Source: a virus
IMG/VR virus record: IMGVR_UViG_3300030333_004928
Location: 1-20,890 of that record
Length of the DNA: 20,890 nucleotides
Direction: 5' to 3' (one strand)
The position numbers were made by a program, and so were the translations under genes. Below the pieces are notes generated by a model. It saw only the letters and a list, made by a program, of their open reading frames with translations. It was not told the DNA's origin and did not search any database. Shown piece after piece: positions 3,712 to 19,087 of this stretch (the stretch's first letter is position 1; each line of letters begins with the position of its first letter).

Positions 3712-4028
3712 TTTAAAAAAATTTGTAAAAAATTTCGCGTGGGGGTAGCCATACCACAACGCCGGATTGCGGCTGAGTTATGGCGGCAAATTCCAACGCA
3801 TAGCGGCGAGGGCGTATAGTTAGGCATGAGATGCAGGGGCGACCCCCCTTGAGTCCATCCAGCGAGGCCCACAGGGTGATTTTGGGGGTATTCTGAAAAT
3901 ATCCATGCCGAGCAAATGATCATTGATTTTTCAAATCAGAATCCAGCCTCACGGCCAATCGTGAATTTCGATTTGAGATTGTGAGCCGGTGGCGGTTATC
4001 CGCCGCCACCGACTCGATTTTCATTTGC
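3712..4028. other. Non-coding stretch between convergent genes
   Basis: No credible gene. It begins with an A/T-rich run (3714-3735), then turns markedly more GC-rich than the flanks (about 3737-3890), with small self-complementary segments such as GGGGCGACCCC near 3837-3847. It ends with the hairpin at 3987-4011. A minus-strand frame at 3498-3923 overlaps the plus-strand gene and has no protein-like character. No GTTACAA repeats occur. Candidates are a structured RNA, a packaging (pac/cos) site or a decayed gene; nothing decides between them. Confidence 0.5.
3987..4011. terminator. Hairpin between convergent transcripts
   Basis: CGGTGGCGG pairs with CCGCCACCG across a 7-nt loop (9 bp). It lies 18 nt past the minus-strand stop at 4029 and downstream of the terminase operon, so it may end transcription from both sides. 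There is no long U-tract. Confidence 0.5.
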
Positions 4029-5165
4029 TCAGATTTTGAACATAGACCAACGACCGAGAACCGAAGTAGTCAATCGTGCCGTTTCGTAATTCTTGTTGGA
4101 CTTATCCTTGAGGGTTGGAACGAGTCCGATTCTCAAAGCATGAACCACCGGTGCGACTCTTTGCACATCGGCAATAGTCGCATCGAATACGCCTCTTTCA
4201 AAGCCCGCTTCAAACACCCAAAATAGGAAGGTGAAAGGGTCGCCGTTTGGGGTGGTTGCGTTGCCGAGATATCGAACCATACGACCCGCGATTGATTTCA
4301 CGGTTCGCGCACCGCTTGTCGGTGGGATATCAATATCTAATTCCGGCACTACTAAGCCGTTCTTTCTCTCGTATGCGAGAACGACTCTCGCGCCGGTTTT
4401 CTTTTGGACTTGAACCTTGATTGGTTGCTTGTATTCTCCACCAATGAAAGCATAGGTCTTGAGGGTCGAGAACATATTGCCGCCGACTTCTCTTGATGAC
4501 TCGACAACATCACCGCCACAGGTCGGGCAACCCATGAATGGAGATGAGCCGAGCGGTAGCCATGATTCCGTTCCCGAAGGAGTATAACAACCGACACCTT
4601 CGGCCACTTTTTCGCATACATATCTCGCACCCTGCTTGACTTGCTTAACCAATGAACGGGTTAATTTCTGTTCCTTAGTGTAGCCGTTGATAGCGTATAG
4701 GTTGTTTTCAATGGCGTTTCCCCTGCTCAATTCAAACAGGACCGGCATTGATTCAATAGGGCCAATATTGCCCTTTCCGGCCCACTTGACTAATTGCTTA
4801 ATGCCGTCAGTCTTAGCAGGGTTTAGAACGACCTTGACCTTGCGGCCAATGGTTGAATGAAGTAAGCCCATTTGCCCCATTTCAACGACCTTATCGAAGG
4901 AGAATGAGCGAGGCCATACCGGAACATTTGCTTGAGGGCTTACAGCCTCAATTATTGCGTCAATATGGCTCGTCTTCTTTGCCTTGTTCTTTGGTGCGGC
5001 TTCGACCCTCTCCGAGAGAGCCTTAACCTTCTTCATTGGAAGAAGGCTCAATGCCGCAACGATGAGGGATTTTAACCACCCCATCGTCTTGACCTCAGCC
5101 GCCGCATTTACGGCGGTTGAGGCATTCGTTGTTTGTGCCTCATAGGATATCGCGTTGGATTCCAT
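4029..5165 (-). CDS. Unknown protein with hydrophobic N-terminal segment and Cys cluster
   Basis: A solitary minus-strand gene of 378 residues from ATG 5165. A GTG at 5177 in the same frame would add four residues, but a TATA-like box at 5188-5194 sits 26 nt before the ATG. Near residues 30-40 there is a short hydrophobic stretch (WLKSLIVAALSLLP) followed by a basic Lys-rich linker. The middle holds a Cys group ending in CPTCGGD, a likely zinc site. The C-terminal half is rich in beta-type sequence. Codons are more GC-rich than in the right-arm genes. I do not recognise the family. Isolation from neighbours and its own promoter and terminator suggest independent expression; a virion component is possible but unproven. 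Confidence 0.85.
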   Translation of the reverse strand: MESNAISYEAQTTNASTAVNAAAEVKTMGWLKSLIVAALSLLPMKKVKALSERVEAAPKNKAKKTSHIDAIIEAVSPQANVPVWPRSFSFDKVVEMGQMGLLHSTIGRKVKVVLNPAKTDGIKQLVKWAGKGNIGPIESMPVLFELSRGNAIENNLYAINGYTKEQKLTRSLVKQVKQGARYVCEKVAEGVGCYTPSGTESWLPLGSSPFMGCPTCGGDVVESSREVGGNMFSTLKTYAFIGGEYKQPIKVQVQKKTGARVVLAYERKNGLVVPELDIDIPPTSGARTVKSIAGRMVRYLGNATTPNGDPFTFLFWVFEAGFERGVFDATIADVQRVAPVVHALRIGLVPTLKDKSNKNYETARLTTSVLGRWSMFKI

Positions 5166-5187
5166 GAGCCGAGCCACTTCATGCGTA

Positions 5188-5194
5188 GTATATG
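5188..5194 (-). promoter_or_regulatory. TATA-like box for the 4029-5165 gene
   Basis: Reads CATATAC on the minus strand, centred 26 nt before ATG 5165, consistent with a leaderless mRNA. Confidence 0.5.
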
Positions 5195-5206
5195 AGGCGT
5201 TCGTTT

Positions 5207-5566
5207 TTCGTAACTCCTTTGATTTGATTTCTTGACGGTATGAGTCCAGCGCAATTTTAGCCGTTACAATAATTCAATAATAATAATTCTGAGAATTTTA
5301 TTAAATTGCTCGATCTGAGCGTTACAATAATTTTTCCCACAGAAGCGTTACAAAAAAGAAAATCGTTACAATAAATAGAGTTACAATAAAAAAAGTTACA
5401 ATAAAAGAAATCCGTTACAAAAAAAGAAATCCGTTACAAAAAAGAGATTTGGGCGGGGCGTTACAATGATCAATGTAACGTGAGGCGGCGTTACAAAACG
5501 CCCCACCCGTTGAGTGTTACAATTAGTATATGTTACAATTAAGCGGAGTTGGATCGTTACAATTTT
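5207..5566. repeat. GTTACAA repeat cluster A
   Basis: At least 13 forward copies of GTTACAA(T/A) begin at 5263, 5321, 5347, 5365, 5380, 5395, 5414, 5433, 5460, 5490, 5516, 5532 and 5556. One reverse copy lies near 5472-5479 and one degenerate reverse copy (CGTAACT) near 5209, closest to the left gene. Copies at 5347-5433 are 15-19 nt apart and separated by A-runs. The cluster fills the 419-base gap between two minus-strand genes; I see no gene in it. Confidence 0.9.
5451..5508. terminator. Long GC-rich inverted repeat inside cluster A
   Basis: GGGCGGGGCGTT (5451-5462) pairs with AACGCCCCACCC (5497-5508) with one mismatch. The loop contains a near-palindrome around TGATCA and a third repeat copy. 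It lies about 75 nt downstream of the minus-strand stop at 5585 and may terminate that operon, or act as a DNA cruciform. Confidence 0.45.
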
Positions 5567-5584
5567 TTGGTTTTGATTTCTTCT

Positions 5585-6007
5585 TCATTCTGACTTCACC
5601 CCGAAGTAGTTATCCCAATCTGTAAGGGATAGAGGTTGCCGACAGGCGGTGCAGTTAGGGCATTCCCATATTGGATATGATTCAAGGGTTTCTTCACCAG
5701 CAGAACCGAAATAATCGGTTTCAACGGACATCTTGAAATTGTGCTGGTTGTCTTTGCATAGCACCGGTCCAATCTTTTCTGATGGCTCAAATTTAACTTC
5801 CCATGCGATTCCGTCTTCGTCTTCGTATGTGTAAGACTTGATGATTTTACACGCCTTCGTAAAGCGGCGTGATTGGAATGCGGGGTTAGGGAAGGCCATG
5901 ATGAATTGATAGAATGCGTCATGGATTGCCTGTTGGGTTGCGTAGTCCTTAGAGGGGTGATTAGCAACAATCTCAGCCATTTTGTTGAAGTGCTGGCGTG
6001 AGAGCAT
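5585..6007 (-). CDS. Unknown protein with CxxCxxC motif
   Basis: 140 residues from ATG 6007. A TTG one codon upstream is a less likely start. The ATG overlaps the TGA of the upstream gene (TGATG), so it is the second gene of a two-gene minus-strand operon. The N-terminal half is helical (SRQHFNKMAEIVANHPSKDY). The C-terminal half holds CPNCTACRQP, a probable zinc-binding knuckle, and an acidic SYTYEDEDG stretch. No family recognised. Confidence 0.8.
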   Translation of the reverse strand: MLSRQHFNKMAEIVANHPSKDYATQQAIHDAFYQFIMAFPNPAFQSRRFTKACKIIKSYTYEDEDGIAWEVKFEPSEKIGPVLCKDNQHNFKMSVETDYFGSAGEETLESYPIWECPNCTACRQPLSLTDWDNYFGVKSE

Positions 6008-6435
6008 CAATACACCCCCCGACTCTCTAACTCGTCTTCAATGTCGCAGGAATAGCCTTGAATGCGGGCTGGTGGTTCTAAGAGGGCGGTTATCTCGGCT
6101 TGATGGTCGCAAGTGCCTTCAAACACGCAAGAACAGGTCTTGATTATCAATTGCTTAATTCGGTGGTATCGGTAAAGTGGTTCGTCTATCGGCTCATCTT
6201 CATTGTCTGAACAGTCGCCGTTCCAGCCGTCTTCCTGTTTGATTTTGGTTGTGATAATTCGACCATAGCAACCCGCTTCGGGGCAATCTTCGCTACTTTT
6301 GGTGGGGTGGTTGTTTGGGTCGGATTCGACAAAATATTCAACCATGCCCCACATTTCGTTATCAATTCTCCATTGTTCAAACGATGGTTCGGGCGGTAGT
6401 GGTTCTGAGGACTTGTAATCATCCCACCGGCGCAT
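6007..6435 (-). CDS. Unknown acidic Cys-containing protein
   Basis: 142 residues from ATG 6435. In-frame alternatives are ATG 6462 and GTG 6495. I prefer 6435 because a weak TATA-like AATATGC lies about 27 nt upstream and the residues added by earlier starts are atypical. The protein is acidic with scattered Cys (EDCPEAGCYG, KTCSCVFEGTC) that could bind metal. It is coupled to the next gene by a 1-nt overlap. No family recognised. Confidence 0.7.
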   Translation of the reverse strand: MRRWDDYKSSEPLPPEPSFEQWRIDNEMWGMVEYFVESDPNNHPTKSSEDCPEAGCYGRIITTKIKQEDGWNGDCSDNEDEPIDEPLYRYHRIKQLIIKTCSCVFEGTCDHQAEITALLEPPARIQGYSCDIEDELESRGVY

Positions 6436-6589
6436 CAGACCACCCCCAAAGCGCAGGTGCATATTGTTAGCACCGCATCGGTGCGACCAGCGCACGAACT
6501 AAAGTCAATTGTTAGGGCCTCATCTATGGGGTTGCATCCGCAAGCCATGACTCGCCGTAGCCATTGTTGCTTATCAATACTATGCTAAT

Positions 6590-6960
6590 TTATTGTAACG
6601 GTTATTGTAACGCAGATGATCATTTATTGTAACGCTCAAGCGGTAGCGAAGCGATCATGTTACAATAATTTCGTAACGGGGATCTAAGCCCGTTACAATA
6701 AAAAAAGTTACAAAAAAAAGCGTTACAATAAAAAAAAGTTACAATAAAAAAGTTACAATAACTCAGACCGTTACAATAAAACCGGTCTATAATATATGCC
6801 CTGCCGTTACAATAAAAAAAATACCTAAAAAAACCGTTACAAAAAAGAGAAAAAAAGAGTTACAAAAAACAAGCCGGATCTGGCGTTACAATAGCACGAC
6901 TAAGGGAGTTACAATTAACTCCCTTAGCCGCTTGCGTTACAATATTAGGATGTTACAATT
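6590..6960. repeat. GTTACAA repeat cluster B
   Basis: Reverse copies (TTATTGTAAC) begin at 6590, 6602 and 6624, with a TTCGTAAC variant at 6670. About 14 forward copies begin at 6659, 6692, 6707, 6722, 6738, 6752, 6770, 6806, 6836, 6859, 6885, 6908, 6936 and 6952. Those at 6692-6752 are spaced 14-16 nt. The last copies overlap the 3' end of the minus-strand gene that stops at 6945. The gap from 6436 also holds a 14-codon minus-strand frame near 6563-6519 that I do not call. Confidence 0.9.
6900..6927. terminator. 12-bp perfect hairpin embedding a repeat copy
   Basis: CTAAGGGAGTTA pairs with TAACTCCCTTAG over a CAAT loop. The GTTACAA unit at 6908 forms the top of the stem and the loop. It sits 18 nt past the minus-strand stop at 6945, so it is well placed as a terminator for that gene. 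Confidence 0.55.
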
Positions 6961-7355
6961 CGATGAAAATTACTAAATTTGTAAATCGCGGGCCAATCTC
7001 GCATATCCCAATGTTCGCTGGCCTCAGTCACAATCATTCTCATGTCGTCTGATATTGAAGAATGCCTCAATTTCATAATTTCCGGTGTTGTCTTTGATTT
7101 GCCGCCATCAGCATACATTCCTTCTTCACCCTTCAATATGTTTTCAACATGAGAACAGATATCCGCCATGCTATCCATGTCGTCTTCTTCTAAGTCAGAC
7201 CACTCCATCGTGTCTTGATTGTGAATTACTCGGAATCTTTTATTCACATAATCCCATGATTTTGCGAGTAATCCTGCCTCGCTACGAGCGAGGATAACCC
7301 GCTCATACTCTCTATTGCCGTTCTTCTCCTTGATGATGCCCCAATGCAACCTCAT
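6945..7355 (-). CDS. Unknown protein, possible helical adaptor
   Basis: 136 residues from ATG 7355. An in-frame ATG at 7379 overlaps the TATA-like box itself, whose centre is exactly 25 nt before 7355, so 7355 is preferred. The protein is mixed charged, with a REYERVILARSEAG strand-helix start and an acidic EWSDLEEDDMDSM segment. Its last codons (…RIVTS) are encoded by a GTTACAA repeat copy, so repeat and gene overlap. No family recognised. Confidence 0.75.
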   Translation of the reverse strand: MRLHWGIIKEKNGNREYERVILARSEAGLLAKSWDYVNKRFRVIHNQDTMEWSDLEEDDMDSMADICSHVENILKGEEGMYADGGKSKTTPEIMKLRHSSISDDMRMIVTEASEHWDMRDWPAIYKFSNFHRIVTS

Positions 7356-7376
7356 AATTAGTCGTAGGTGGGGTTG

Positions 7377-7383
7377 CATATAA
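7377..7383 (-). promoter_or_regulatory. TATA-like box for the 6945-7355 gene
   Basis: Reads TTATATG on the minus strand, centred exactly 25 nt before ATG 7355. It decides the start over the upstream ATG 7379. Confidence 0.5.
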
Positions 7384-7396
7384 GGGCTTTGGTGGT

Positions 7397-8240
7397 TTAT
7401 TGTAACGGCATATTTCGATCTGGATTTAGCAGTTACAATAATTTCGTAACGCGATCAAGGGATCGGTGGTTACAATAATTTCGTAACGCGATCAAAGCGA
7501 TCAATAGTTACAATAACTCGGACAACCACCTATATAACCTTTTAGTTACAATAACTCGGACAGGGGGTCTATAAAGATTACCCGTTACAATAGAGGTTTT
7601 TGCTGGTTTAAGTCTTTCGTTTGTAACACCCGATTTCATTTGTGGTGGATAGGCTCGCAGTATAGCGTTTTTATGTGGTGAGTTACAATAATTAACAAAA
7701 TTGGCGATTTTGCGGCCCAAGTGGGGGGGTTTCGCGTCATTTTCGCGTTACAAAAAATTTTGATTCGATCCACGCAATTTTTCCGCAAAAAAACGCAAAT
7801 TTCGCGGAGTTACAAAAAAATTGTAACTTTTTGATTTGTAACTATTTTGCGCTTATTGTAACGATTTATTGTAACATTTGCGTGTTACAATTATTATTGT
7901 AACAACGACTTTTTTTTGTAACACCCCCAGACCAAGTAGTGTAAAAAAGAAAGCGAGTGTTGTAAATAAAACCGGCTGAAAAAAGTAAAGCCGATGTGCT
8001 TAATGCACTAAGGGTTTTTATTGTAACTTAATGTGGATATACGAAAATTATTGTAACTATTATTTATATCTTCGATCCTGAGCGTTACAATAAAAGATCA
8101 TGGTTTTTTCCTGCGTTACAATAAGCCGTTACAAAAAGATACACCCGTTACAAAAATGTTCATGCGTTACAATATATATATCTCGATCTAAACCGTTACA
8201 ATATACCGAGAGAGATTTTTGCATAAAAGATCCGTTACAA
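7397..8240. repeat. GTTACAA repeat cluster C (largest)
   Basis: About 16 forward copies begin at 7432, 7469, 7507, 7545, 7584, 7682, 7747, 7809, 7884, 8084, 8115, 8128, 8147, 8166, 8195 and 8234. About 10-12 reverse copies begin near 7397, 7621, 7821, 7836, 7853, 7866, 7894, 7915, 8018 and 8048, plus TTTCGTAAC variants at 7442 and 7479. The cluster fills a 950-base gap between divergent genes. It also contains two small hairpin-forming words near 7973-8009 (CGGCT/AGCCG and GTGC/GCAC). The frame at 7508-7720 is a repeat artefact. I see no gene here. Confidence 0.9.
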
Positions 8241-8278
8241 TAGGGCTAAAATTAAGGGAGAATGCCGCATAGAAAAGA

Positions 8279-8285
8279 TTATATA
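8279..8285 (+). promoter_or_regulatory. TATA-like box opening the rightward region
   Basis: Reads TTATATA, centred about 26 nt before ATG 8308. No CACCGC box precedes it, so this first operon differs from the downstream ones. Confidence 0.5.
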
Positions 8286-8307
8286 CTACCTATTTCCTGC
8301 TCTAATT

Positions 8308-8823
8308 ATGAGAAAAGTCATACCTGCGCGTATATGTCCTATATGTAGTGGAGAATTTGAGGCAAATACGAGGGGTCGCCCTCGCCGCTTCTGTTCTCCC
8401 GAATGCACCACCAAAGCAAAGAATACTAACTTCGCTAAGAACGAAGCACTTGACCGGCCAAAGTCTAAGGGCGGTCGGGGAAATAAAATCCTTCGACCGT
8501 GTGGGTGTCCTACTCGTAAGCATAATCCCGATTGCGTTTTATCTCGCGCATTCCATGTTAATGATGAAATGAATATGCAATCAGTCGCGGCCAGCAACGC
8601 TTCAAGGATTGCTAAAGCAAAGAGAACGCTTGAGGCTCAACGACTACGGGCGGCAAACAAGCGAGCCGCCGCAATCAAGAAGGCCGGAATGATTCCGGTT
8701 GATTCAATCAGTAAAAATCTCCCTATCTATATCGCGTGTGTGAAATGTAAGGGGCGAGGTCCAATAAGGGATTTCACCGCATGGAAACAAGCGGATAGAA
8801 CCGGAGTGTGTAAGAATTGTTAG
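8308..8823 (+). CDS. Multi-zinc-ribbon protein
   Basis: 171 residues, Lys/Arg-rich, with three Cys groups: CPIC at 10-13 paired with FCSPEC at 28-33, a central PCGC…PDC group, and a C-terminal CVKC…CKNC pair ending at the last residue. A long basic helical linker (about residues 100-130) separates them. The first group resembles zinc knuckles found in viral nucleic-acid-binding proteins. Likely a DNA- or RNA-binding protein; the target is unknown. First gene of a three-gene operon with a leaderless start. Confidence 0.85.
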   Translation: MRKVIPARICPICSGEFEANTRGRPRRFCSPECTTKAKNTNFAKNEALDRPKSKGGRGNKILRPCGCPTRKHNPDCVLSRAFHVNDEMNMQSVAASNASRIAKAKRTLEAQRLRAANKRAAAIKKAGMIPVDSISKNLPIYIACVKCKGRGPIRDFTAWKQADRTGVCKNC

Positions 8824-8836
8824 GAGATGAAAAGAA

Positions 8837-8977
8837 ATGAATGAAGAAGAAATGAAAGAATTTTGGAAGAAATTAGATGAAGAAAATGAATGCGAATGCG
8901 ATAAACAAGAAGTCGAAAGATTGAGAAAAATCAAGGATGGGCTTCAAGTGGGATATTGTATGTGTGGTGTTGAGTGA
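8837..8977 (+). CDS. 46-residue acidic protein with Cys pairs
   Basis: Starts at ATG 8837 after the ribosome site AGGAGATGA. It begins MNEEEMKEFWKKLDEENECE and ends YCMCGVE, giving a CEC and a CMC pair that could form one metal site across a short helix. Its stop overlaps the next start (TGATG). Function unknown. Confidence 0.65.
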   Translation: MNEEEMKEFWKKLDEENECECDKQEVERLRKIKDGLQVGYCMCGVE

Positions 8978-9285
8978 TGGATAGATATATTGAGAAAATA
9001 GAAGACTTTGATGATGAAGAATTGAGCATGATTGCTAATGCGTTGAGCGACAAAGAATCCCGCATGAGGGAATTGGCTAACGATGAGAACCACTTGAATT
9101 TATTAGCGGTTCGACAGATAAGATTAGGAAAGAAAAATGGCCGCGATTACGCTAAGGAATGCGGCAAAGAGTGGTTTGGGGAAATGATGGAATTTTACAA
9201 GTCGGAACGGAAGAACCAATACCTGCAAGACGCGAGAAAATACGGGAAATTATCAAACCGGTTTTTTGAAGAATTATTTGAGTAA
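8977..9285 (+). CDS. Unknown acidic helical protein
   Basis: 102 residues from ATG 8977 (a GTG just before it is less likely). Almost entirely helical and charged, with an acidic start (MDRYIEKIEDFDDEELSM) and several Met and Tyr residues. Translationally coupled to the upstream 46-residue gene. No family recognised. Confidence 0.75.
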   Translation: MDRYIEKIEDFDDEELSMIANALSDKESRMRELANDENHLNLLAVRQIRLGKKNGRDYAKECGKEWFGEMMEFYKSERKNQYLQDARKYGKLSNRFFEELFE

Positions 9286-9303
9286 TGCTGGATCAATAAA
9301 CCT

Positions 9304-9325
9304 CACCGCTAAAAGATATAAATAC
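9304..9325 (+). promoter_or_regulatory. Box promoter 1
   Basis: CACCGC at 9304, then TAAAAG and the TATA element ATATAAATA. ATG 9346 lies exactly 42 nt after the first C, as in eight other copies. A GAGGA word lies between box and start. Confidence 0.8.
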
Positions 9326-9345
9326 TAAAAAAAAGAGGACTAATT

Positions 9346-9681
9346 ATGGAAAAAAGCCACACTAACAAAGCCAGCATAAAATTGATGAACAAGACTCAGA
9401 AGCACACCATTTTTGTTGATGGTGAATTAGATATTTTAGCCGCTTATCAAATCGTAGCGGGTAAAAGAGCCAACATTATTTACGGCCATTCTTTCAAGGG
9501 TCGCGCAAGACAAATTTCTTTTGATACTTGCGCTTCTTCTTTGATAAAAAATGATTTCCCGCGCCTAAGTAATGAAGAATACCGCGATATGTTCTTTAAA
9601 ATTCAAAAAGTCAAGGATGAATTGCGAGCGTTTAGAGAGAACCTGTGCCTTGAGTATGGGAACGACAAGCAGGACTCGTAA
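9346..9681 (+). CDS. Unknown 111-residue protein
   Basis: A single-gene transcription unit: box promoter upstream, hairpin plus T-run terminator downstream. The protein is basic at the N-terminus (MEKSHTNKASIKLMNKTQKH) and contains VDGELDILAAYQIVAGKRA, then a helical C-terminal half. No family recognised. The start is fixed by the 42-nt register of the promoter. Confidence 0.75.
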   Translation: MEKSHTNKASIKLMNKTQKHTIFVDGELDILAAYQIVAGKRANIIYGHSFKGRARQISFDTCASSLIKNDFPRLSNEEYRDMFFKIQKVKDELRAFRENLCLEYGNDKQDS

Positions 9682-9688
9682 TCGGATC

Positions 9689-9907
9689 ATTGTAACGGGT
9701 CGGTGGGGTTAGAACCCCATCGGCCCTAAATTTTTTTTGTCTATCAAAAATTATTGTAACGGTTCTCTATCTGAAAATATTGTAACGGATCTGGATCCAG
9801 AATTATTGTAACGCTTTGTATCGGCCAGCACGAAGCGTTACAAAAAAATATGATCTGAAAAAGTTACAATAAAAAAAGAAAAAAGCGCGTTACAAAAAAG
9901 TTACAAA
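9689..9907. repeat. GTTACAA repeat cluster D (4 reverse + 4 forward)
   Basis: Reverse copies at 9689, 9751, 9779 and 9803; forward copies at 9837, 9863, 9889 and 9900. The inner pair forms a perfect 11-nt inverted repeat, TTGTAACGCTT (9806-9816) with AAGCGTTACAA (9833-9843). A terminator hairpin sits between the first two reverse copies and box promoter 2 follows the last forward copy. Confidence 0.9.
9697..9738 (+). terminator. Rho-independent-like terminator
   Basis: GGGTCGGTGGGG (9697-9708) pairs with CCCCATCGGCCC (9715-9726) using two G-U pairs. The sequence CTAAA and eight Ts follow. It lies 16 nt after the stop at 9681. Confidence 0.8.
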
Positions 9908-9930
9908 AAAGGAAATTCGATCTTAAAAAA

Positions 9931-9954
9931 GATCACCGCTAAAAGCCTTAAATA
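9931..9954 (+). promoter_or_regulatory. Box promoter 2
   Basis: GATCACCGCTAAAAG, two bases, TTAAATA. ATG 9976 is 42 nt after the first C of CACCGC. Confidence 0.8.
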
Positions 9955-9975
9955 TTAAGAAGAAAACGGAATATC

Positions 9976-10092
9976 ATGGTTGAAACATACACCAAAGAGG
10001 ATTTACCCGCGACTGACCTTAACGAATGGGGCTACCCATCCGATGACTATATGCACATCGGAAACGGATTATTCGTAAAGAGGGATGAGTAA
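9976..10092 (+). CDS. 38-residue leaderless protein
   Basis: Starts with MVETYTKEDLPATDLNEWGY and ends FVKRDE. The start codon sits at the exact 42-nt register from the promoter box, which is the main reason to accept so short a gene. First gene of a five-gene operon. Acidic; function unknown. Confidence 0.65.
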   Translation: MVETYTKEDLPATDLNEWGYPSDDYMHIGNGLFVKRDE

Positions 10093-10094
10093 AA

Positions 10095-10391
10095 ATGAAT
10101 AGAAATGATTGGAGAGGTTTGACGAATGAATTACTTGCTGATTATGAAACCCGTTCTTTTGAACAAATGCAAGAGATAGAAACGGTGGTAAGAAATTTAA
10201 TGCCGCGAGAAACGCACCCTTGCCCTGTCGGTCTATTGATTGCTGAAATCAAGCGATTGAGAAAAGATGAGGATTTGCTTTTTGATGCTTACACACAGAT
10301 GAGAAAAGAAAGGGATTCACTTTTAAAAGAAATGAAAAACGATTTAATCGAGCAAGCACTAACCATTAGTAGCAAAAGAAACGGAGAGTAA
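10095..10391 (+). CDS. Probable coiled-coil protein
   Basis: 98 residues, nearly all helical, with a long charged heptad-like stretch in the second half (AEIKRLRKDEDLLFDAYTQM followed by RKERDSLLKEMKND). A single CPVG sits in the middle. It follows the 38-residue gene by two bases. Probably an oligomerising or scaffold-type small protein; no family recognised. Confidence 0.75.
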   Translation: MNRNDWRGLTNELLADYETRSFEQMQEIETVVRNLMPRETHPCPVGLLIAEIKRLRKDEDLLFDAYTQMRKERDSLLKEMKNDLIEQALTISSKRNGE

Positions 10392-10396
10392 AAATT

Positions 10397-10531
10397 ATGA
10401 ATCAGACTAAGATATTTTACACAGACATGACGAAAAAAACAGACGCTAAAAATTGTAAGACACACCACCCAAAAATAAGCGGTGAAAATTATTGCCGGAT
10501 ATGCAATAGAAGCAGGAGTGAGGAAGAATGA
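10397..10531 (+). CDS. 44-residue zinc-ribbon-like protein
   Basis: Begins MNQTKIFYTDMTKK and contains CKTHHP…YCRIC, a Cys/His set able to bind one zinc. It ends SEEE, encoded by a GTGAGGAAGA stretch that doubles as the ribosome site for the next gene, whose ATG overlaps its stop. Function unknown. Confidence 0.6.
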   Translation: MNQTKIFYTDMTKKTDAKNCKTHHPKISGENYCRICNRSRSEEE

Positions 10532-10683
10532 CTAAAAATTTTGAACCTAATTGCGAAGTCTATTTCAAAAAGAATTACAAAGAATTAGCACGATTAGTTA
10601 GGGGCGAACACCCAAAAAAAGTTACGGTTAAAATAGTCTTGGAAGACGGAACAGAATACATAGGCAAGGTGGAACAACAATGA
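10528..10683 (+). CDS. 51-residue beta-rich protein, paralogue of 18400
   Basis: Overlaps its neighbours by 4 nt on both sides (ATGA). The C-terminal part KVTVKIVLEDGTEYIGKVEQ resembles LLIEITFDDGDIYKGWVDKQ encoded at 18400-18507, including the acidic-Gly turn and the closing W/K-V-x-Q. The two are probably paralogues. Function unknown. Confidence 0.65.
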   Translation: MTKNFEPNCEVYFKKNYKELARLVRGEHPKKVTVKIVLEDGTEYIGKVEQQ

Positions 10684-10880
10684 AAGTTAGATGTAGTAAT
10701 TGCCTATCAGTATTTCATGTCGCCGCGCCCGATAGAAGCGTTTGGAATAGAGGCGGTAAATTCGATATTATTACCTGCTTTGAATGTGGCTTCGACAATT
10801 GGAGAAAGATTCCTCATTCAGACAAAAAGATTTCAAAGAGGCCCGACAAAATAACCACCGTTGTTTTGATTGATCCATAA
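10680..10880 (+). CDS. 66-residue zinc-ribbon protein
   Basis: Two Cys pairs, CSNC at residues 5-8 and CFEC at 33-36, are spaced as in a classic single zinc ribbon. The C-terminal tail is basic (KKISKRPDKITT). The start overlaps the upstream stop. Last gene of the operon; box promoter 3 begins 2 nt after its stop with no terminator visible. Confidence 0.75.
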   Translation: MKVRCSNCLSVFHVAAPDRSVWNRGGKFDIITCFECGFDNWRKIPHSDKKISKRPDKITTVVLIDP

Positions 10881-10881
10881 A

Positions 10882-10905
10882 GATCACCGCTAAAAGGGTT
10901 AAATA
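10882..10905 (+). promoter_or_regulatory. Box promoter 3
   Basis: GATCACCGCTAAAAG, two bases, TTAAATA, immediately after the preceding stop codon. ATG 10927 is at the 42-nt register. Confidence 0.8.
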
Positions 10906-10926
10906 GTAGTAATGAGAGAGATAATT

Positions 10927-11061
10927 ATGGGAGAAGAAGTCCATACAGAAGGAATGCTGACTAATGAATTATTTAGGCGAATGATGGAAGCCGAGAATTG
11001 GTGTTGTGGCCGATTCTGTGATGTTCCAAATTCCCCTTTATGCACCTGCGAGGATAAGTGA
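10927..11061 (+). CDS. 44-residue Cys-rich protein
   Basis: Starts at the promoter register position (an in-frame ATG at 10912 precedes the predicted RNA start). The second half carries WCCGRFCDV…CTCEDK, five Cys in about 17 residues, suggesting a compact metal site. First of two genes; the next follows with its ribosome site GGATAAGTGA overlapping this 3' end. Confidence 0.65.
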   Translation: MGEEVHTEGMLTNELFRRMMEAENWCCGRFCDVPNSPLCTCEDK

Positions 11062-11066
11062 AAAAA

Positions 11067-11453
11067 ATGTATATGAAGATAGATGAACAAGATTTTGTAA
11101 ATGCCTTTGAAAGAATGAATCGGTCCGATAATTTCTCGGTGATTGGCCGCCGAATGTTATTTGAATATTTGACCGATGTTGAAGATGATGTGGGAGAAGA
11201 AATGGAGTTAGATGTAATCGCATTCTGTTCTTCTTTTACCGAGTATGAATCAATTGATGAGTATTGCGACACCTATGATTATAGCCCGCTCACACGCGAC
11301 CGCTTGAACCATGCGGTGAAAGAAGAAGATATTGACTACCTGCGAGAAATCTTAGGTGATAAGCACCATGCCGTTATAACATGGTTTAATCACCCATTAG
11401 TGGGTTATGGTGGCTACCAAAAGACTTTCAGAATGATTCTGAGTGATTTCTAA
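11067..11453 (+). CDS. Acidic phage-family protein (NFS-x-FEYL…EMELDVIAFC type)
   Basis: 128 residues from ATG 11067. The earlier GTG 11058 is part of the ribosome site GTGA, a pattern repeated before 13334 and 13657. The order DNFSVIGRRMLFEYLTDVED, then EEMELDVIAFCSSFTEYES, matches a small uncharacterised family I recall from many phages and plasmids. I recognise the family from memory only and know of no function for it. Followed by repeat cluster E and a terminator. Confidence 0.8.
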   Translation: MYMKIDEQDFVNAFERMNRSDNFSVIGRRMLFEYLTDVEDDVGEEMELDVIAFCSSFTEYESIDEYCDTYDYSPLTRDRLNHAVKEEDIDYLREILGDKHHAVITWFNHPLVGYGGYQKTFRMILSDF

Positions 11454-11462
11454 AACGATTGG

Positions 11463-11630
11463 TTATTGTAACGCCTCGCCGTCTAAATGGCGGCGGGGCT
11501 AAATTTTTTTTTCGGCTGAAAAATTATTGTAACGCTTCTGGATCGATCCCGCGCCAGCGTTACAATAAAAATATATCATAACTCGTTACAAAAAAAGAGA
11601 ACCAAAAAAGAGTTACAAAAAAGTTACAAA
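11463..11630. repeat. GTTACAA repeat cluster E
   Basis: Reverse copies begin at 11463 and 11524; forward copies at 11559, 11585, 11612 and 11623. The inner pair is a perfect 13-nt inverted repeat, TTATTGTAACGCT (11524-11536) and AGCGTTACAATAA (11556-11568), enclosing the palindrome GGATCGATCC. The layout parallels cluster D (repeat, terminator hairpin, T-run, repeat, palindrome, forward copies, box promoter). Confidence 0.9.
11473..11512 (+). terminator. Rho-independent-like terminator
   Basis: GCCTCGCCG (11473-11481) pairs with CGGCGGGGC (11491-11499) with one G-U, followed by TAAA and nine Ts. It lies 20 nt after the stop at 11453. Confidence 0.8.
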
Positions 11631-11642
11631 AAAAGAAAAAAA

Positions 11643-11666
11643 GATCACCGCTAAAAAATATAAATA
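11643..11666 (+). promoter_or_regulatory. Box promoter 4
   Basis: GATCACCGCTAAAAAAT with TATA element ATAAATA. The nearest ATG (11686) is 40 nt from the first C and opens a 26-codon frame. The main gene starts 16 nt later at 11702, after a small GGTT/AACC hairpin. Confidence 0.75.
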
Positions 11667-11701
11667 CTTGAACGATTACGGACAAATGGTTGTGATAACC
11701 G

Positions 11702-12088
11702 ATGAGGCAAACAAAGACGATAGAAGAAAGAATAGACGCAATTTTAGGGCATACAGAATCGCTTGAGGACTTAAAAAAATTCAAGCCTAATTCGTTTTGT
11801 AAAGACTGTAAGAAGCATTACCAAATTATTCGTTCAGCACCCTATGTAATTGTGATGACTGATGACGGAGAAAAAGCACCGCAATTTTCCGGTTCGGGTG
11901 ATGCTAACTGTTTGAAGAAATTTTTAGGTCGCGATTATCCCGAATATGATTTTGAAGATGGTTATTATTACGGTGGAATATTCCAAAAAGATGTTATCAA
12001 AACGAGTAAAGAATATCGAAAGGCATTCCAAAAAGAAATCAAGAGGATCAATCAGAATGCGTGTAAATGCTCATACCCGATAATGTGA
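11702..12088 (+). CDS. Unknown protein with Cys pairs
   Basis: 128 residues. CKDC occurs near residue 33, followed by a Lys/His stretch, and CKC near the C-terminus (NACKCSYPIM). The middle is acidic and aromatic (EYDFEDGYYYGGIF). An alternative leaderless ATG at 11686 is in another frame (26 codons, ending 11766), so the main protein needs a short leader. No family recognised. Confidence 0.75.
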   Translation: MRQTKTIEERIDAILGHTESLEDLKKFKPNSFCKDCKKHYQIIRSAPYVIVMTDDGEKAPQFSGSGDANCLKKFLGRDYPEYDFEDGYYYGGIFQKDVIKTSKEYRKAFQKEIKRINQNACKCSYPIM

Positions 12089-12092
12089 GAAA

Positions 12093-12116
12093 GATCACCG
12101 CTAAAAGAGTTAAATA
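12093..12116 (+). promoter_or_regulatory. Box promoter 5
   Basis: GATCACCGCTAAAAG, two bases, TTAAATA, five bases after the preceding stop. ATG 12138 is at the 42-nt register. Confidence 0.8.
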
Positions 12117-12137
12117 GTATGACGATGAGGATTTATT

Positions 12138-12458
12138 ATGAAGCAGAACCGAGATGTGGTAAAAGACTACTTCCTATGCACATGGAATGGAGATGAAATA
12201 ATAGAATTGCACACGAAAGAAAGCCTTTGGAAAAATTATAAAGATACTAATTTATTTGAAGATGATGATTGGTTTTATGAAAGGGAAAATTTAGAAAATG
12301 TAAGCCTAACGGATTTGATGAGTATATGTGCTTATCATAAAGATAAAACGATTCATTACAACGATAATATGACTATCATGTATGTCGGAAGTAAAAAGCG
12401 GCTTGCTCTTTTTAGAGGCTACCGCGATTCTAAATTAGAGCATCTAAAATTCAAGTGA
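12138..12458 (+). CDS. Unknown 106-residue protein
   Basis: A single-gene unit between box promoters 5 and 6. Acidic middle (DTNLFEDDDWFYERENLENV) and a basic C-terminal part (VGSKKRLALFRGYRDSK). No family recognised. The start is set by the promoter register. Confidence 0.75.
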   Translation: MKQNRDVVKDYFLCTWNGDEIIELHTKESLWKNYKDTNLFEDDDWFYERENLENVSLTDLMSICAYHKDKTIHYNDNMTIMYVGSKKRLALFRGYRDSKLEHLKFK

Positions 12459-12462
12459 GAAA

Positions 12463-12486
12463 GATCACCGCTAAAAGACTTAAATA
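12463..12486 (+). promoter_or_regulatory. Box promoter 6
   Basis: GATCACCGCTAAAAG, two bases, TTAAATA. ATG 12508 is at the 42-nt register. The sequence AGTGAGAAAGATCACCGC is shared almost exactly with promoter 5. Confidence 0.8.
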
Positions 12487-12507
12487 GAAGAAAGGAGAGG
12501 ACTAATT

Positions 12508-12987
12508 ATGAGAAAAATGCCGACCAACCTAAGCCACAAAGAAGCCACCTTCCTTTATTGGTGTGCTTTGGATAAAATAGAAAATGAAAGCCGCGACCAT
12601 GCGGTTTTCATATTCGGTTCAGAAGAAAACGGCGGGCATGATTCCACCGAAATGATTACACAAAAAGAGATTTGGTCGCTTGTAAATAATTTGGCGGAAG
12701 AAGTCCAATGGCGGCAAGACATGAAAATGATTCAAAAGGTGGTGTGTGCTGATTGCGGAACGGTTTGTCCGGCCAGCATGGAAACCTTTGGGTCGAAATT
12801 GTCTATGCACAGTGGAATTTGGGCTGATTGCCCCGAATGCGGCTTGACCGGCTACGATGAAATCGTGGTGGATTGGGATCGATGGGCTAAAAATAATCTC
12901 ACACATGAAGCGAGAGAAAGAACGGCTGAACAAAACAAAAGCACCGCCAAAAGATTCTCAGATGCGTTTAGACCAAACAGGGAATGA
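12508..12987 (+). CDS. Unknown protein with zinc ribbon
   Basis: 159 residues. The N-terminal half is helical (LSHKEATFLYWCALDKIENE). The centre has CADCGTVC and, about 40 residues on, DCPECGLTG, a likely four-Cys zinc ribbon. The C-terminal tail is charged and helical. A single-gene unit. No family recognised. Confidence 0.78.
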   Translation: MRKMPTNLSHKEATFLYWCALDKIENESRDHAVFIFGSEENGGHDSTEMITQKEIWSLVNNLAEEVQWRQDMKMIQKVVCADCGTVCPASMETFGSKLSMHSGIWADCPECGLTGYDEIVVDWDRWAKNNLTHEARERTAEQNKSTAKRFSDAFRPNRE

Positions 12988-12998
12988 TCCATAAACCT

Positions 12999-13019
12999 CA
13001 CCGCAAAAAGACTTATTAA
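12999..13019 (+). promoter_or_regulatory. Box promoter 7 (variant)
   Basis: CACCGCAAAAAG followed by a weaker TATA element TTATTAA. ATG 13041 is at the 42-nt register, which rules out the earlier in-frame ATG 13026. Confidence 0.75.
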
Positions 13020-13040
13020 CTATGAATGAGAGGACTATAT

Positions 13041-13328
13041 ATGAGCAGGAGAAGAACAACCAGCGCAAATAAGATTGATGAGAAAATCCGCACGATAGAT
13101 GATATCGTAAGCGGGTTGGATGAACGAACCGATGTAGTAAATCTTGAGATTTTACGAATCTTTGATGAAAAACTGAGGATGCTTATTGAGGATATGCGGC
13201 ACGAAATCCAAACGAAAGAAACCGCATTAGAATTATTGAGATTCAAGGATAGAGTCGAGAGAATCGGTATGGATAAGATATTGGAAAAGATAGACCAATG
13301 GGTAAAACAAAATGAAGAAAACAGGTGA
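13041..13328 (+). CDS. Small helical, charged protein
   Basis: 95 residues, basic N-terminus (MSRRRTTSANKIDEK) followed by long amphipathic helices with heptad-like spacing (IDDIVSGLDERTDVVNLEIL). Probably a coiled-coil oligomer. First gene of an operon with a zinc-ribbon protein and the DUF932 protein. No family recognised. Confidence 0.78.
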   Translation: MSRRRTTSANKIDEKIRTIDDIVSGLDERTDVVNLEILRIFDEKLRMLIEDMRHEIQTKETALELLRFKDRVERIGMDKILEKIDQWVKQNEENR

Positions 13329-13333
13329 AAAAA

Positions 13334-13636
13334 ATGGAGAGTATAATTTGTGAAAAATGCGGAGAAGACCTAACAGATGTTGCCGAAGAAGAAGATAATG
13401 CAGAATTGATAATGATTGTTTGTTCTTGCGGGCATAGAACCAAAGGACCTGCATACCCTAAATTCAAAAGATTCCGGCCATACAAGGCAGAATTAAATGC
13501 CGATGAAATAAAAATGCTTTTGGCTTTAGACCGCATACTACCTAAAGATGTATCAGAATTTATGGAGATAGAATATAAGGGCGAATACGGCCGATTCATT
13601 AGAAAATTATCGAGAGGATATAGGGGCTACGATTAA
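13334..13636 (+). CDS. Zinc-ribbon protein
   Basis: 100 residues from ATG 13334, preceded by the ribosome site GGTGA within the upstream gene's stop region. CEKCGEDL at the N-terminus and CSCGHRTKG about 22 residues on form a classic zinc ribbon. The rest is basic and helical (KFKRFRPYKAELNADEIKML). Likely nucleic-acid binding by analogy only. Confidence 0.78.
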   Translation: MESIICEKCGEDLTDVAEEEDNAELIMIVCSCGHRTKGPAYPKFKRFRPYKAELNADEIKMLLALDRILPKDVSEFMEIEYKGEYGRFIRKLSRGYRGYD

Positions 13637-13656
13637 AAAAATAAGGAGTGAAAAAA

Positions 13657-14637
13657 ATGGCTAAGAAAAACAAAACCATGCCCGCCTATGCTATGATGGG
13701 GAAGCAAGCGGTGGGTTCAACGACTGAGGAAGTGCTAACGAATGCCGGAATGAATTTTTCGATAGGTATAGAACCAATCTATACCAAATCGGGAAAAATG
13801 ATTCGGGGGGGTAATTTCCGCCGAGTATTCCGTAAAGATAACGACCATGATTTAGGGGTGGTAAAAAAGAATTATCAGATTTTACAACCTATCGAATGGG
13901 CCAACATAGCGAACACCTTGAGTGGTGGCTTAGAGGCCGAATGGGATCGAATCGGTATGATAAACAAGGGAGAAAAAATGTTCGGGTCATTTACTTTGCC
14001 CGAACAAATCCAAATAGGCAACGGCGACAAATTCGCAACGAATATGTATCTATGGACTTCTAACGATGGTTCGGGTGCAGTAAATTGTTTGCCGACCTTA
14101 AGACGGCTGGCTTGTGCTAATCAATCACCGATGGCTTTCAGAACGCTCGCTACTATGGGCTTGAGAGCGAAGGATTTGTCTATCCCTCATTCTTCTATAA
14201 TGAGAGGCAGGATTGATAATTTACCGCAAAAATTGAACATGATTAACACCATGCAACAGGAATGGTGCGCCATGACCGACCAATTGTTAGAGGTCGAAAT
14301 GGAATTTGACGATAGGGTGCAATTCTATATTGATGTGATGGGTTGGACTCAAAAAGACGAATTGAAGGATAAGGTCGAAAATCCTCATGGGCTGGCTACA
14401 AGAGGCCGCAACCAATTAGAGGCCATGCTTGAGTTAGAAGGTTCTCGCACAAACACAGGAAATGGTATGCGTGATACTCAATATCAAGCATACAATGTTC
14501 TGACGGAATTTATAGACCACCATAGCATTCTAAGCGGCGGCAAGCCCAAAGAATCAACGATGAATAATACCGTATTCGGTGCGGGGGCGAGGAAGAAGGA
14601 TAAGGCATGGGCGTTGCTCATGCAATCCCACCTATGA
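13657..14637 (+). CDS. DUF932-type phage/plasmid protein
   Basis: 326 residues from ATG 13657 (ribosome site AAGGAGTGA). Features of the DUF932 family are present: a VVKKNYQILQP early segment, a central MYLWTSNDGSGAVNCLPTLR block with RRLACANQSPMAF, and a C-terminal NTGNGMRDTQYQAYNVLTEF followed by IDHHS. The family is widespread in phages and plasmids; its biochemical role is not firmly known to me. It is the largest right-arm protein and the last gene of its operon. A repeat copy and a long hairpin follow the stop directly. Confidence 0.88.
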   Translation: MAKKNKTMPAYAMMGKQAVGSTTEEVLTNAGMNFSIGIEPIYTKSGKMIRGGNFRRVFRKDNDHDLGVVKKNYQILQPIEWANIANTLSGGLEAEWDRIGMINKGEKMFGSFTLPEQIQIGNGDKFATNMYLWTSNDGSGAVNCLPTLRRLACANQSPMAFRTLATMGLRAKDLSIPHSSIMRGRIDNLPQKLNMINTMQQEWCAMTDQLLEVEMEFDDRVQFYIDVMGWTQKDELKDKVENPHGLATRGRNQLEAMLELEGSRTNTGNGMRDTQYQAYNVLTEFIDHHSILSGGKPKESTMNNTVFGAGARKKDKAWALLMQSHL

Positions 14638-14639
14638 GT

Positions 14640-14647
14640 ATTGTAAC
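14640..14647 (-). repeat. Last GTTACAA repeat copy (F)
   Basis: A single reverse copy, ATTGTAAC, two bases after the DUF932 stop and abutting the hairpin. No further copies occur to the right edge. Confidence 0.8.
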
Positions 14648-14675
14648 GGGGCTACGGGATCGATCTCGTAGCCCC
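14648..14675 (+). terminator. Near-perfect palindromic hairpin
   Basis: GGGGCTACG pairs with CGTAGCCCC, and the interior continues through GATCGATC, so the whole 28 nt is palindromic except one G-U. There is no T-run, unlike the hairpins at 9697 and 11473. It lies 10 nt after the stop at 14637 and 8 nt before promoter 8. Confidence 0.6.
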
Positions 14676-15288: not shown

Positions 15289-15981
15289 ATGACTAACTAC
15301 TACTTAGGCGACCCCTGTTATGTCTTGTCGGAAGACAACGACCCCGAAGATAGATTATGGAGAGCATTTCTTGAACCGTATTTTGCGAGGACTGATCTTT
15401 ACCGTGAAAAAAAAGAGCAACCGCGTTATCCAATGTATTTCACATACAATGAAAACGATGGTAAATTTTACTTCGCATATCAAGACGAACCCGAAGAAAA
15501 CCGGATCGAATTGTGGGAGAGTCCGTTTGGAGATGGTTGTTGGACTTATGCTAACTCCGTCTTTGGTATGGAGAATTGGATTTGTGGGCGTGAGATACCC
15601 GTTGATGCTGGCTTGATAGCGGTTGTGCCGGTATCAATCCTTGAACAAATACATGGTTTTGATTTAGGGGGTATAGGCAGACCACTTGACGACTACGGTA
15701 TGCTTTTCTCGGCAAAGCCCGAAATCGCAACGGGCGAATATTTAGACGGAAATGTTATCGTTCAAGGATATACGCCGGATGGATTCGGTGAATGCTACAA
15801 TTGCGGGGCTATCAAACACGGAGAAGATTTTGAATACTGCGAAACTTGCGGCGAAGAAGGGTGCTACGATTGCTTCAATTGTGAGTGTGAGTGGTGCGAT
15901 AAATGCAGAACGCAGGTCGAATCAAATGATTATAACCATAGAAAGGATTGTTGCGTTGATTGTGCAGGTGAGGAAGAATGA
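15289..15981 (+). CDS. Protein with Cys-rich zinc-binding C-terminus
   Basis: 230 residues from ATG 15289 (a TTG at 15283 is less likely). It opens MTNYYLGDPCYVL, a phrase I recall from small phage proteins that also carry a later DAGLIAVVP strand, present here near residues 105-115. The last 65 residues contain about 16 Cys in CxxC-type pairs (CYNCG, CETCGEEGCYDC, CEWCDKC, CCVDC), probably two or more zinc ribbons. It ends GEEE, encoding the next gene's ribosome site, with a 4-nt overlap into the methyltransferase. Confidence 0.8.
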   Translation: MTNYYLGDPCYVLSEDNDPEDRLWRAFLEPYFARTDLYREKKEQPRYPMYFTYNENDGKFYFAYQDEPEENRIELWESPFGDGCWTYANSVFGMENWICGREIPVDAGLIAVVPVSILEQIHGFDLGGIGRPLDDYGMLFSAKPEIATGEYLDGNVIVQGYTPDGFGECYNCGAIKHGEDFEYCETCGEEGCYDCFNCECEWCDKCRTQVESNDYNHRKDCCVDCAGEEE

Positions 15982-16943
15982 AATTAAAAATCTTTGAAGG
16001 GTTTGCTGGCGCAAGCGGGCATCCTAAAATTGAAGCCGGTTGGACTAAAGAAGCGAGAAAGAGAGGCCATATCGTGAAATTAGGTGAATTAGAAAACCTA
16101 TGGTATGAGCCAGATCTTCACGGCGACATATTAGATTTTACCGCTCAAGATATTCTTAATTTGTTTGATGGAGAGCCGCCCGATATATGTTGTTTTTCGC
16201 CACCATGCGAAGGATTCTCTATCGCTGGTGCGATTAGTAGCAATTGGTCGGATTGGGATAAGGAAAAAAAGGATAATTTTAATCGAGCAAGATGGAACAA
16301 AGATTATGATTATTTTAACCAACCAAATGTCGGGCCGACTCCCACATCAGAAAGATCGATAAAAGGCCGTGAATTGCTTTTGCATACTCTAAAAATCATA
16401 GATGATTTGTTGGAGATAAACCCGTTCATGCTTTATTTCATAGAGAACCCCACAGGTATGATGAGATACCAACCGGAGTTAGCGAAGCGTTTTGATTTAC
16501 TACCACCGTTTGAGCAGGGATTAGGGCCGAGCGAAACGCTCGCCCCTTCTCCTTCTATTACTCATTCGTCTTACGCTGGTCCGTTGTCTAAATTGATATG
16601 TGGGCGCGAAGGGCATTTAGTGGGTCATTCCGAAGGAACATTACCTTCAAGAAAGGCCACAGATATTTTCACTAATGCTTGGCCCGCCTTTGAAGGGAGA
16701 AGACGCTCTAAAAATGGTATTCATGCAGGGATTTATCACGCTTCCGCACCGAGAGGGGCTAAGACGGGCATACAGGGTTTGAATGATTGGATAGATGAAG
16801 AAAACGGTATTGTTATCGGAAAATATTGGCTTCGATCTTTGATTCCTTATGAATTAGGGGTTGATATGATAAATGCCGCAGAAGCAATTTTCAGCGAGGA
16901 TTATGAATGGAATACCGACACCGCCAATATGGGGTGGTTCTGA
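15978..16943 (+). CDS. C5-cytosine DNA methyltransferase
   Basis: 321 residues. Motif I is KIFEGFAGASG (residues 4-14, AdoMet binding), motif IV is SPPCEGFS with catalytic Cys 77, and motif VI is FIENPTG (residues 154-160), the ENP variant found in phage enzymes. It transfers a methyl group from AdoMet to cytosine in DNA. No restriction endonuclease is recognisable beside it, so it is probably an orphan enzyme protecting viral DNA or modulating expression. It overlaps its upstream neighbour by 4 nt and its downstream neighbour by 1 nt. The recognition site cannot be read from sequence. Confidence 0.88.
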   Translation: MKLKIFEGFAGASGHPKIEAGWTKEARKRGHIVKLGELENLWYEPDLHGDILDFTAQDILNLFDGEPPDICCFSPPCEGFSIAGAISSNWSDWDKEKKDNFNRARWNKDYDYFNQPNVGPTPTSERSIKGRELLLHTLKIIDDLLEINPFMLYFIENPTGMMRYQPELAKRFDLLPPFEQGLGPSETLAPSPSITHSSYAGPLSKLICGREGHLVGHSEGTLPSRKATDIFTNAWPAFEGRRRSKNGIHAGIYHASAPRGAKTGIQGLNDWIDEENGIVIGKYWLRSLIPYELGVDMINAAEAIFSEDYEWNTDTANMGWF

Positions 16944-18959: not shown

Positions 18960-19073
18960 ATGAGTAAAAACCAGCCACATTGTATTCCATGTATGAAAAA
19001 ACACGGTAAAAGATACATAATTAAGGGTTGCACTTGTGATGAAGCCGCCCCTATGTTTAATTTGAGATTTTGA
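18960..19073 (+). CDS. 37-residue zinc-ribbon-like protein
   Basis: MSKNQPHCIPCMKKHGKRYI followed by GCTCDE: CxxC and CxC pairs 16 residues apart. Ribosome site GGAGTGA upstream. The stop overlaps the ribosome site of the next gene. Function unknown. Confidence 0.6.
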   Translation: MSKNQPHCIPCMKKHGKRYIIKGCTCDEAAPMFNLRF

Positions 19074-19087
19074 AGGAGATGAAGAAA

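Follow-up and report, generated by a model that had tools for sequence, protein, structure and literature searches.

Lineage-specific GTTACAA arrays of a putative tailed archaeal virus as candidate half-site operators of a virus-encoded regulator

We analysed a stretch of 20,890 bases (the window), which forms the first part of the 29,329-base IMG/VR virus record IMGVR_UViG_3300030333_004928 (G000) and in which the short element GTTACAA recurs in gaps between genes. These elements are real and under selection; they lie between genes, are specific to the virus, form palindromes in part, are linked to promoters and biased in direction, and covary with one virus protein. The explanation we favour, and which we regard as fairly probable on the basis of these sequence comparisons, is that they are half-site operators of a sequence-specific, probably dimeric regulator that would be encoded by the virus and would control a block of accessory genes. 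An original prediction, made from the letters of this DNA, had listed several candidate roles and is partly supported; its proposal of binding sites for a virus-encoded protein agrees with the virus-specific spelling, the palindromic dyads, the selection, and the covariation with a neighbouring virus protein, all of which point in this direction.

An exact count gave 51 copies of GTTACAA on the plus strand and 20 on the minus strand of the window, 71 in total. About 75 had been counted by eye, and the approximately 51 forward copies of that count were correct, whereas its 22–25 reverse copies were too many. The extension GTTACAAWAA is present in 51 of the 71 copies (37 on the plus and 14 on the minus strand), and the position-weight consensus of the G000 elements is gcGTTACAAtAA. 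A dinucleotide model of the window predicts 2.65 copies on both strands, in line with the two to three chance copies estimated before, and 0.87 for the intergenic part alone; when the sequence was reversed without complementing, a single GTTACAAWAA was left in comparison to the 51 real ones. Although 79% of the window is coding, 70 of the 71 copies are wholly intergenic (P=5e-47), which confirms the claimed near-total confinement to gaps. The block 5263–11632 contains 70 of the 71 copies, with the sole exception at 14641, and no further copy exists in the remainder of the record (20891–29329). The claim that almost every operon gap is occupied was too broad, as elements fill five large gaps of the block, and several short rightward gaps as well as the gaps of 169–350 bp at 17–19 kb contain none.

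The first of the five gaps, 5178–5584, lies between the leftward genes 4029–5177 and 5585–6010 and has 13 elements at 5263–5562, all with GTTACAA on the plus strand, including a dyad at 5460–5479 (GTTACAATGATCAATGTAAC). The gap 6496–6944 has 16 elements at 6593–6942 (3 reverse, then 13 forward) with an imperfect dyad at 6659–6677. The copy at 6908 is part of a hairpin stem and the copy at 6952–6958 is located inside the 3′ end of the open reading frame (ORF) 6945–7379, both as originally described. The largest cluster, with 26 elements in both orientations at 7400–8240, occupies the gap 7380–8307 that separates leftward from rightward genes, and contains dyads at 7432–7450, 7469–7487, 7809–7827, and 7884–7903. 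Between rightward genes, 8 elements (4 reverse, 4 forward) are found at 9690–9906 in the gap 9682–9976, and 6 elements (2 reverse, 4 forward) at 11466–11629 in the gap 11454–11701. The lone outlying element is on the minus strand at 14641–14647, after a DUF932 gene. With a word of 7–12 bp, irregular spacing, and occurrence on both strands, the array is not a CRISPR, and it is also not a single tandem array, in agreement with the original view. A search of the window against Rfam at gathering thresholds gave no match. GC-rich hairpins flanked by reverse elements are found directly 3′ of genes at 9695–9740, 11475–11512, and 14648–14675, the first two followed by T runs; these hairpins are likely terminators.

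The record G009 represents a collinear sister of G000 with the same motif. In the compared block, 65 of 70 elements (93%) were intact in place, 3 were deleted and 2 changed, whereas only 61.5% of the other intergenic 7-mers were intact, and we therefore conclude that the elements are under selection. The ungapped identity was 98.1% for elements, 94.7% for their 8-bp flanks, 89.9% for other intergenic sequence, and 86.3% for coding sequence. In the pair G001/G002, 35 of 42 elements were intact in comparison to 41% of control 9-mers. Anchoring of the alignments on the repeats may account for part of this excess, which is nevertheless considerable for either pair.

For a broader comparison, 80 relatives were fetched by their terminase, and others by a small zinc-cluster protein encoded beside the array (8308–8823, plus strand) or by pattern. 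Many of them carry a dispersed 8-mer at 20–70 or more times the expectation, and these words align on one core. At least a dozen lineages have arrays at the same locus, and each of them spells the word in its own way around a YTACAAA-like core. Counted by core words, most relatives have 27–91 copies and those with the fewest have 13–18; across the group, arrays comprise 30–100 sites packed in one block of 4–7 kb. In mapped array-bearing records, the array adjoins the terminase gene, usually between this gene and the zinc-protein gene, and the locus is populated by small leftward genes, which are mostly unrelated. The motifs are gcGTTACAAtAA in G000, G009, and L009; aaGTTACATAAt in G001, G002, L011, and L014; TTACTACAAATTA in G003 and G022; AACTACATAACA in G008; AACTACAAAACA in L059, L068, L070, L071, and L118; TGTTACAAAAC in L064; AGGTTACAATTTT in G004; TGGTTACAAAAACA in L147, L196, L202, and L204; AAAGTTACAAAT in L079 and L080; gaCTACAAATTTgT in L084; AACCCTACAAAATA in L125 and L126; TGcCTACAAAAC in L127; TAGcCCTACGAAGT in L128; and, less certain, AAAATCCAAAt in G006, L039, L117, and others. 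In some array-less relatives, strongly conserved TTTATATACC promoters or GAGAGAGA runs take the place of YTACAAA arrays at the same locus (G007 (L017) at about 3071–6972; G019 at about 8500–12800).

The respelling is most apparent in G000 and G001, whose large terminase subunits (TerL) are 97% identical and whose DNA is about 91% identical over the first 3.75 kb. Despite this similarity, the word is GTTACAATAA in G000 and GTTACATAAT in G001. The block at about 3.75–16.9 kb is largely replaced between the two, and the motif is replaced along with it; the genes between arrays are largely unrelated across lineages. A triple-pattern search found dense arrays in this virus group and none in unrelated viruses or cells, and cellular genomes contained only scattered or tandem GTTACAA matches. 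With the pair pattern GTTACAAWAA-N-GTTACAAWAA, mostly single chance matches appeared among those listed. An equal frequency of the 7-mer within genes, or in genomes without relation to the virus, would have spoken against the original prediction, and this was not what the searches showed.

The exchange of the whole block between G000 and G001 and the mostly unrelated genes between arrays could be expected if the element were a mobile miniature repeat or a recombination junction that shuffles gene cassettes. This explanation, of which the original prediction had considered the mobile repeat, is most unlikely, as the word of 7–12 bp has no longer repeated body, the copies stay in place between sisters and are respelled together between lineages, and their spacing and TATA linkage are regular. 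It is very unlikely, too, that the arrays are decoys that titrate a regulator of the host or of a rival virus. Such a sponge could explain why copies far exceed the need and fill otherwise empty gaps, but near-identical viruses, presumably with the same hosts, differ in spelling, no comparable arrays were found in the genome_contigs collection, and the promoter linkage would be left unexplained.

The half-sites often face each other at a fixed spacing. A distance of 13 bp between the TAC centres was found for 4 of 4 facing pairs in G003, 6 of 6 in G022, 7 of 7 in G008, 7 of 8 in L059, and 9 of 10 in L064; in the window, 6 of 6 facing pairs are at 12–13 bp if GTTACG is allowed, and the spacing is 9 bp in L084, L080, and G004. 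The resulting palindromes are exemplified by TACTACAAATTAATTTGTAGTA and AACTACATAACATTATGTAG. Much of the leftover gap space is filled by direct repeats, with a period of 14 bp in G003 and G022 and 12 bp in L064. Regular direct repeats alongside inverted dyads would also be compatible with an iteron-like replication control, in which an initiator binds the direct half-sites as iterons of an origin and the inverted pairs serve as operators, and in G002 and G003 the GC-skew minima indeed lie in or beside the array. In G001, G018, G019, and G020, however, the minima are near or upstream of a phosphoesterase gene, in array-bearing and array-less records alike, and GC skew follows the direction of transcription. 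As the sites are spread over 4–7 kb, split by many genes, and form dyads at many promoters rather than one, iteron-like control is unlikely, and the earlier suggestion of a distributed origin finds no support in skew minima that are not consistently at the array.

In a typical gap of L059, read in gene sense, the stop codon is followed by a hairpin with a T-run, several half-sites, a palindrome, a TATA-like box, and the next start codon. Elements exclude the TATA-like box, and the promoter-nearest ones tend to lie 8–17 bp upstream of it. In 21 records, a TATA-like box was present at this distance for 39 of 142 promoter-nearest elements as compared to 59 of 849 others (odds ratio 5, p=3e-11). 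With dyads, a TATA-like box 10–14 bp beyond was found on the side of the leftward gene in 11 of 37 cases and on the opposite side in none of 37. In the window, the minus-strand element at 7397–7406 illustrates this arrangement: the leftward GTTACAATAA is followed after about 12 bp by the TATA-like CTTATATG of gene 6945–7379. Likewise, the minus-strand element at 6590–6599 lies about 10 bp upstream of the leftward TATA-like box TATTGATA. The majority orientation points away from TerL in 21 of 21 records, which equals antisense to the leftward genes.

Dyads that end about 10–14 bp upstream of TATA-like boxes without overlap could instead be upstream activating sites, at which a virus protein recruits TBP and TFB to leftward promoters, so that the arrays would mark an activator regulon without any silencing. 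The archaeal activators Ptr2 and TFB-RF1 act at a position upstream of the TATA box that is comparable to that of the dyads. Both recruit TBP/TFB (PMC5569661). We nevertheless see activation as a lesser, though real, possibility, as it would not account for the many one-way half-sites that lie at a distance from promoters, towards the terminator, and as characterised archaeal regulators are mostly repressors (PMC5569661).

For the operator model that we favour, the following mechanism can be proposed. Two facing half-sites at fixed spacing form a palindrome. A single element or a dyad tends to be placed a short distance before the TATA-like box of a leftward gene, with the remaining half-sites, mostly in one orientation, occupying the rest of the gap between small leftward genes. 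Dimers would bind to the dyad next to the promoter, and the other half-sites could be occupied cooperatively or by monomers, so that the accessory gene block may be switched as a unit. Most likely, binding would silence promoters and block read-through between genes in the manner of phage stoperators, with activation as the alternative sign; we favour silencing with read-through control because many half-sites lie between genes (compare PMC6550527).

As to the protein that would read the sites, the leading candidate is the zinc-cluster protein 8308–8823, the product of the first rightward gene beside the array, which contains a CGCPxRxHxxxC motif and a C-terminal CxxC/CxxC. Of 28 records examined, 19 contained it, and most of the others were short fragments. 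In pairwise comparisons of 14 viruses, the distance between zinc proteins correlated with the distance between motifs after correction for the terminase (partial r 0.52, permutation p 0.002). With the same correction, a 95-residue winged-helix protein (3424–3711, plus strand), which is encoded at the left edge of the locus, immediately behind TerL, and is conserved in the group, gave 0.00 (p 0.51). In a subset of 11 viruses, the DUF932 protein gave 0.17 (p 0.17) as compared to 0.48 (p 0.001) for the zinc protein. The pair G023/G024 is in line with this, since terminases (98%) and winged-helix proteins (97%) are nearly alike, zinc proteins are 61% alike, and the motifs differ. Sites and protein may thus change or be exchanged together, by which the spelling would diverge as in phage immunity groups. 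Taken to its full extent, which we advance only tentatively, this would mean that a virus zinc-cluster protein of unrecognised fold reads the lineage-respelled YTACAAA half-sites and coats 4–7 kb of gaps by means of 30–100 sites, and that viruses which are nearly identical fall into mutually exclusive groups of regulation, and perhaps of immunity; such a system would be new for archaeal viruses.

Several observations weigh against this interpretation. For about 70% of the elements nearest to a promoter, no TATA-like match is seen at 8–17 bp. In the rightward gaps of the window, elements face both ways, and the majority of rightward promoters lack them. The locus encodes the zinc protein even in G007, G019, and G020, group members that have no YTACAAA arrays, and the protein was not found in G006. 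The zinc proteins of L059 and L118, which share a motif, are 59% alike and no closer than pairs with different motifs. As the gene adjoins the array, the covariation could also stem from co-transfer. Finally, no dimeric DNA-binding fold was recognised in the zinc protein: its N-terminus weakly matches CGNR/HNH-type zinc fingers, and its AlphaFold model, of mediocre quality (pLDDT 70), gave no significant PDB match with Foldseek. A protein family that is confined to array-bearing viruses and conserved across most of them was not found.

The winged-helix protein was considered as an alternative reader. Modelling supports its winged-helix fold, with weak structural matches to many winged-helix regulators, but we rejected it since its divergence does not follow the motif, as seen in G023/G024. 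Its position at the left edge and the centromere protein AspA among its weak structural matches, together with the high density and one-way orientation of the elements across about 6 kb, could speak for partition (centromere) sites or genome-organising sites of a virus architectural protein, as originally suggested. This is quite improbable, since no ParA-like ATPase was recognised among the scanned proteins, promoter-linked dyads would not be predicted, and the winged-helix protein does not vary with the motif; the ties to promoters look more like operators. Other candidate regulators are two small proteins (19070–19360 and 20499–20816) that relatives have conserved and that, judged by eye, resemble winged-helix proteins.

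The virus encodes a terminase, and its close relative G001 also encodes a portal, a tape measure, a family B polymerase, and an RFC-like clamp loader; together with the TATA-box promoters, these genes suggest a tailed archaeal virus, with the promoters, the polymerase, and the clamp loader pointing to an archaeal host. TerL relatives, sought in the genome_contigs collection as a hint to the host, were not present. In comparison to annotated phages, TerL gave only matches below 60% identity (21–26% for the best matches listed), and the portal gave none. As a guess only, the virus may belong to the magroviruses of Poseidoniales.

TerL (1931–3427, plus strand) served as the locus anchor in all relatives. 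The leftward gene 4029–5177 (minus strand) at the left edge of the array has an orthologue that is 93% identical in viruses with the same motif, and in GTTACATAAT viruses it is matched only in part, at about 30%; a SAP domain considered for its product was dropped, as there was no family match. The DUF932 protein (13648–14637, plus strand) is the product of a conserved early gene. Rightward genes have a second class of promoter, in which CACCGCNAAAAG directly precedes a TATA-like box (TTAAATA) at least eight times, mostly without GTTACAA (9304, 9934, 10885, 12096, 12466, 12999, 14683, and 17286). A short leftward ORF of about 37 residues starting with MACGCNP, seen by eye on the minus strand at about 6434–6547 before gene 6007–6495, resembles one in G008 near 6380–6670 (MACRHAP) and is possibly an overlooked conserved gene. 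A DNA methyltransferase-like protein (15978–16943; weak PHROG matches) is 98% identical in G000 and G009 and had no match in the compared ORF sets of G001 and G002. At the end of the G001 record (L090; about 660–3900), a 1740-residue ORF contains long internal imperfect repeats, which are also found in G002.

If the operator interpretation is true, the spelling of an array would label the regulatory, possibly immunity, group of each virus from sequence alone and provide a readable regulatory code for uncultured archaeal tailed viruses. The zinc protein would then represent a DNA-reading family that is new, and recognition rules could be derived from its many natural protein–site pairs. The jointly controlled genes would be identified as well, and as they change fast, they would be good candidates for functions in host interaction and counter-defence.

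The closest resemblance is to the stoperators of cluster A mycobacteriophages, which are tens of short virus-specific sites, mostly in one orientation and some of them in promoters, with a consensus that varies together with the regulator protein from one related phage to another (PMC6550527, PMC9283540). In both systems, tens of near-identical, largely intergenic short sites differ in spelling between relatives. However, stoperators are 20–30 sites distributed genome-wide, whereas the archaeal virus arrays have 30–100 sites in one block of 4–7 kb, antisense to leftward genes and in mixed orientation in rightward gaps. The stoperator is an asymmetric 13-bp site for a monomeric phage repressor, of which no homologue was seen here, and the arrays consist of AT-rich half-sites of 7–13 bp with common palindromic dyads at 12–13 bp. 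As the asymmetry is absent, we do not assign the arrays to the stoperator family. In the phage SPbeta, the operator SPBRE is repeated in many promoter regions and bound by the virus-encoded master regulator MrpR (PMC10516654). The likeness is that one virus repeats one operator across promoter regions, with the regulator being a candidate in our case; in contrast, SPBRE belongs to a prophage of a bacterium and has about ten copies of 15 bp, MrpR has a recombinase fold, and there are no many-site gap arrays.

Iteron plasmids combine direct-repeat half-sites with inverted pairs that act as operators, as the arrays do, but have their iterons at one origin and a single operator, whereas the sites described here extend across many gaps, form dyads at many promoters, and come with no consistent sign of an origin. 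Among archaeal virus regulators, F55, SvtR, and AvtR are virus-encoded dimers whose sites near viral promoters are tandem or inverted repeats, and some of these proteins spread along DNA (PMC5569661). These are ribbon-helix-helix proteins with few sites per genome, and no such protein was recognised in our virus. The halovirus HF2 has nine long intergenic repeats (29 or 58 bp), and the TATA box is part of the repeat (PMC8707807). It is likewise an archaeal tailed virus with intergenic, promoter-linked repeats that are conserved in place among relatives, but the sites analysed here are short, are present in far greater number and upstream of the TATA box, and change their spelling from lineage to lineage. 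In the literature searched, we found no description of dense, lineage-respelled half-site arrays in archaeal viruses. Already known are virus-wide repeated operators in bacteria and the promoter repeats of HF2, and the known archaeal virus regulators have few sites.

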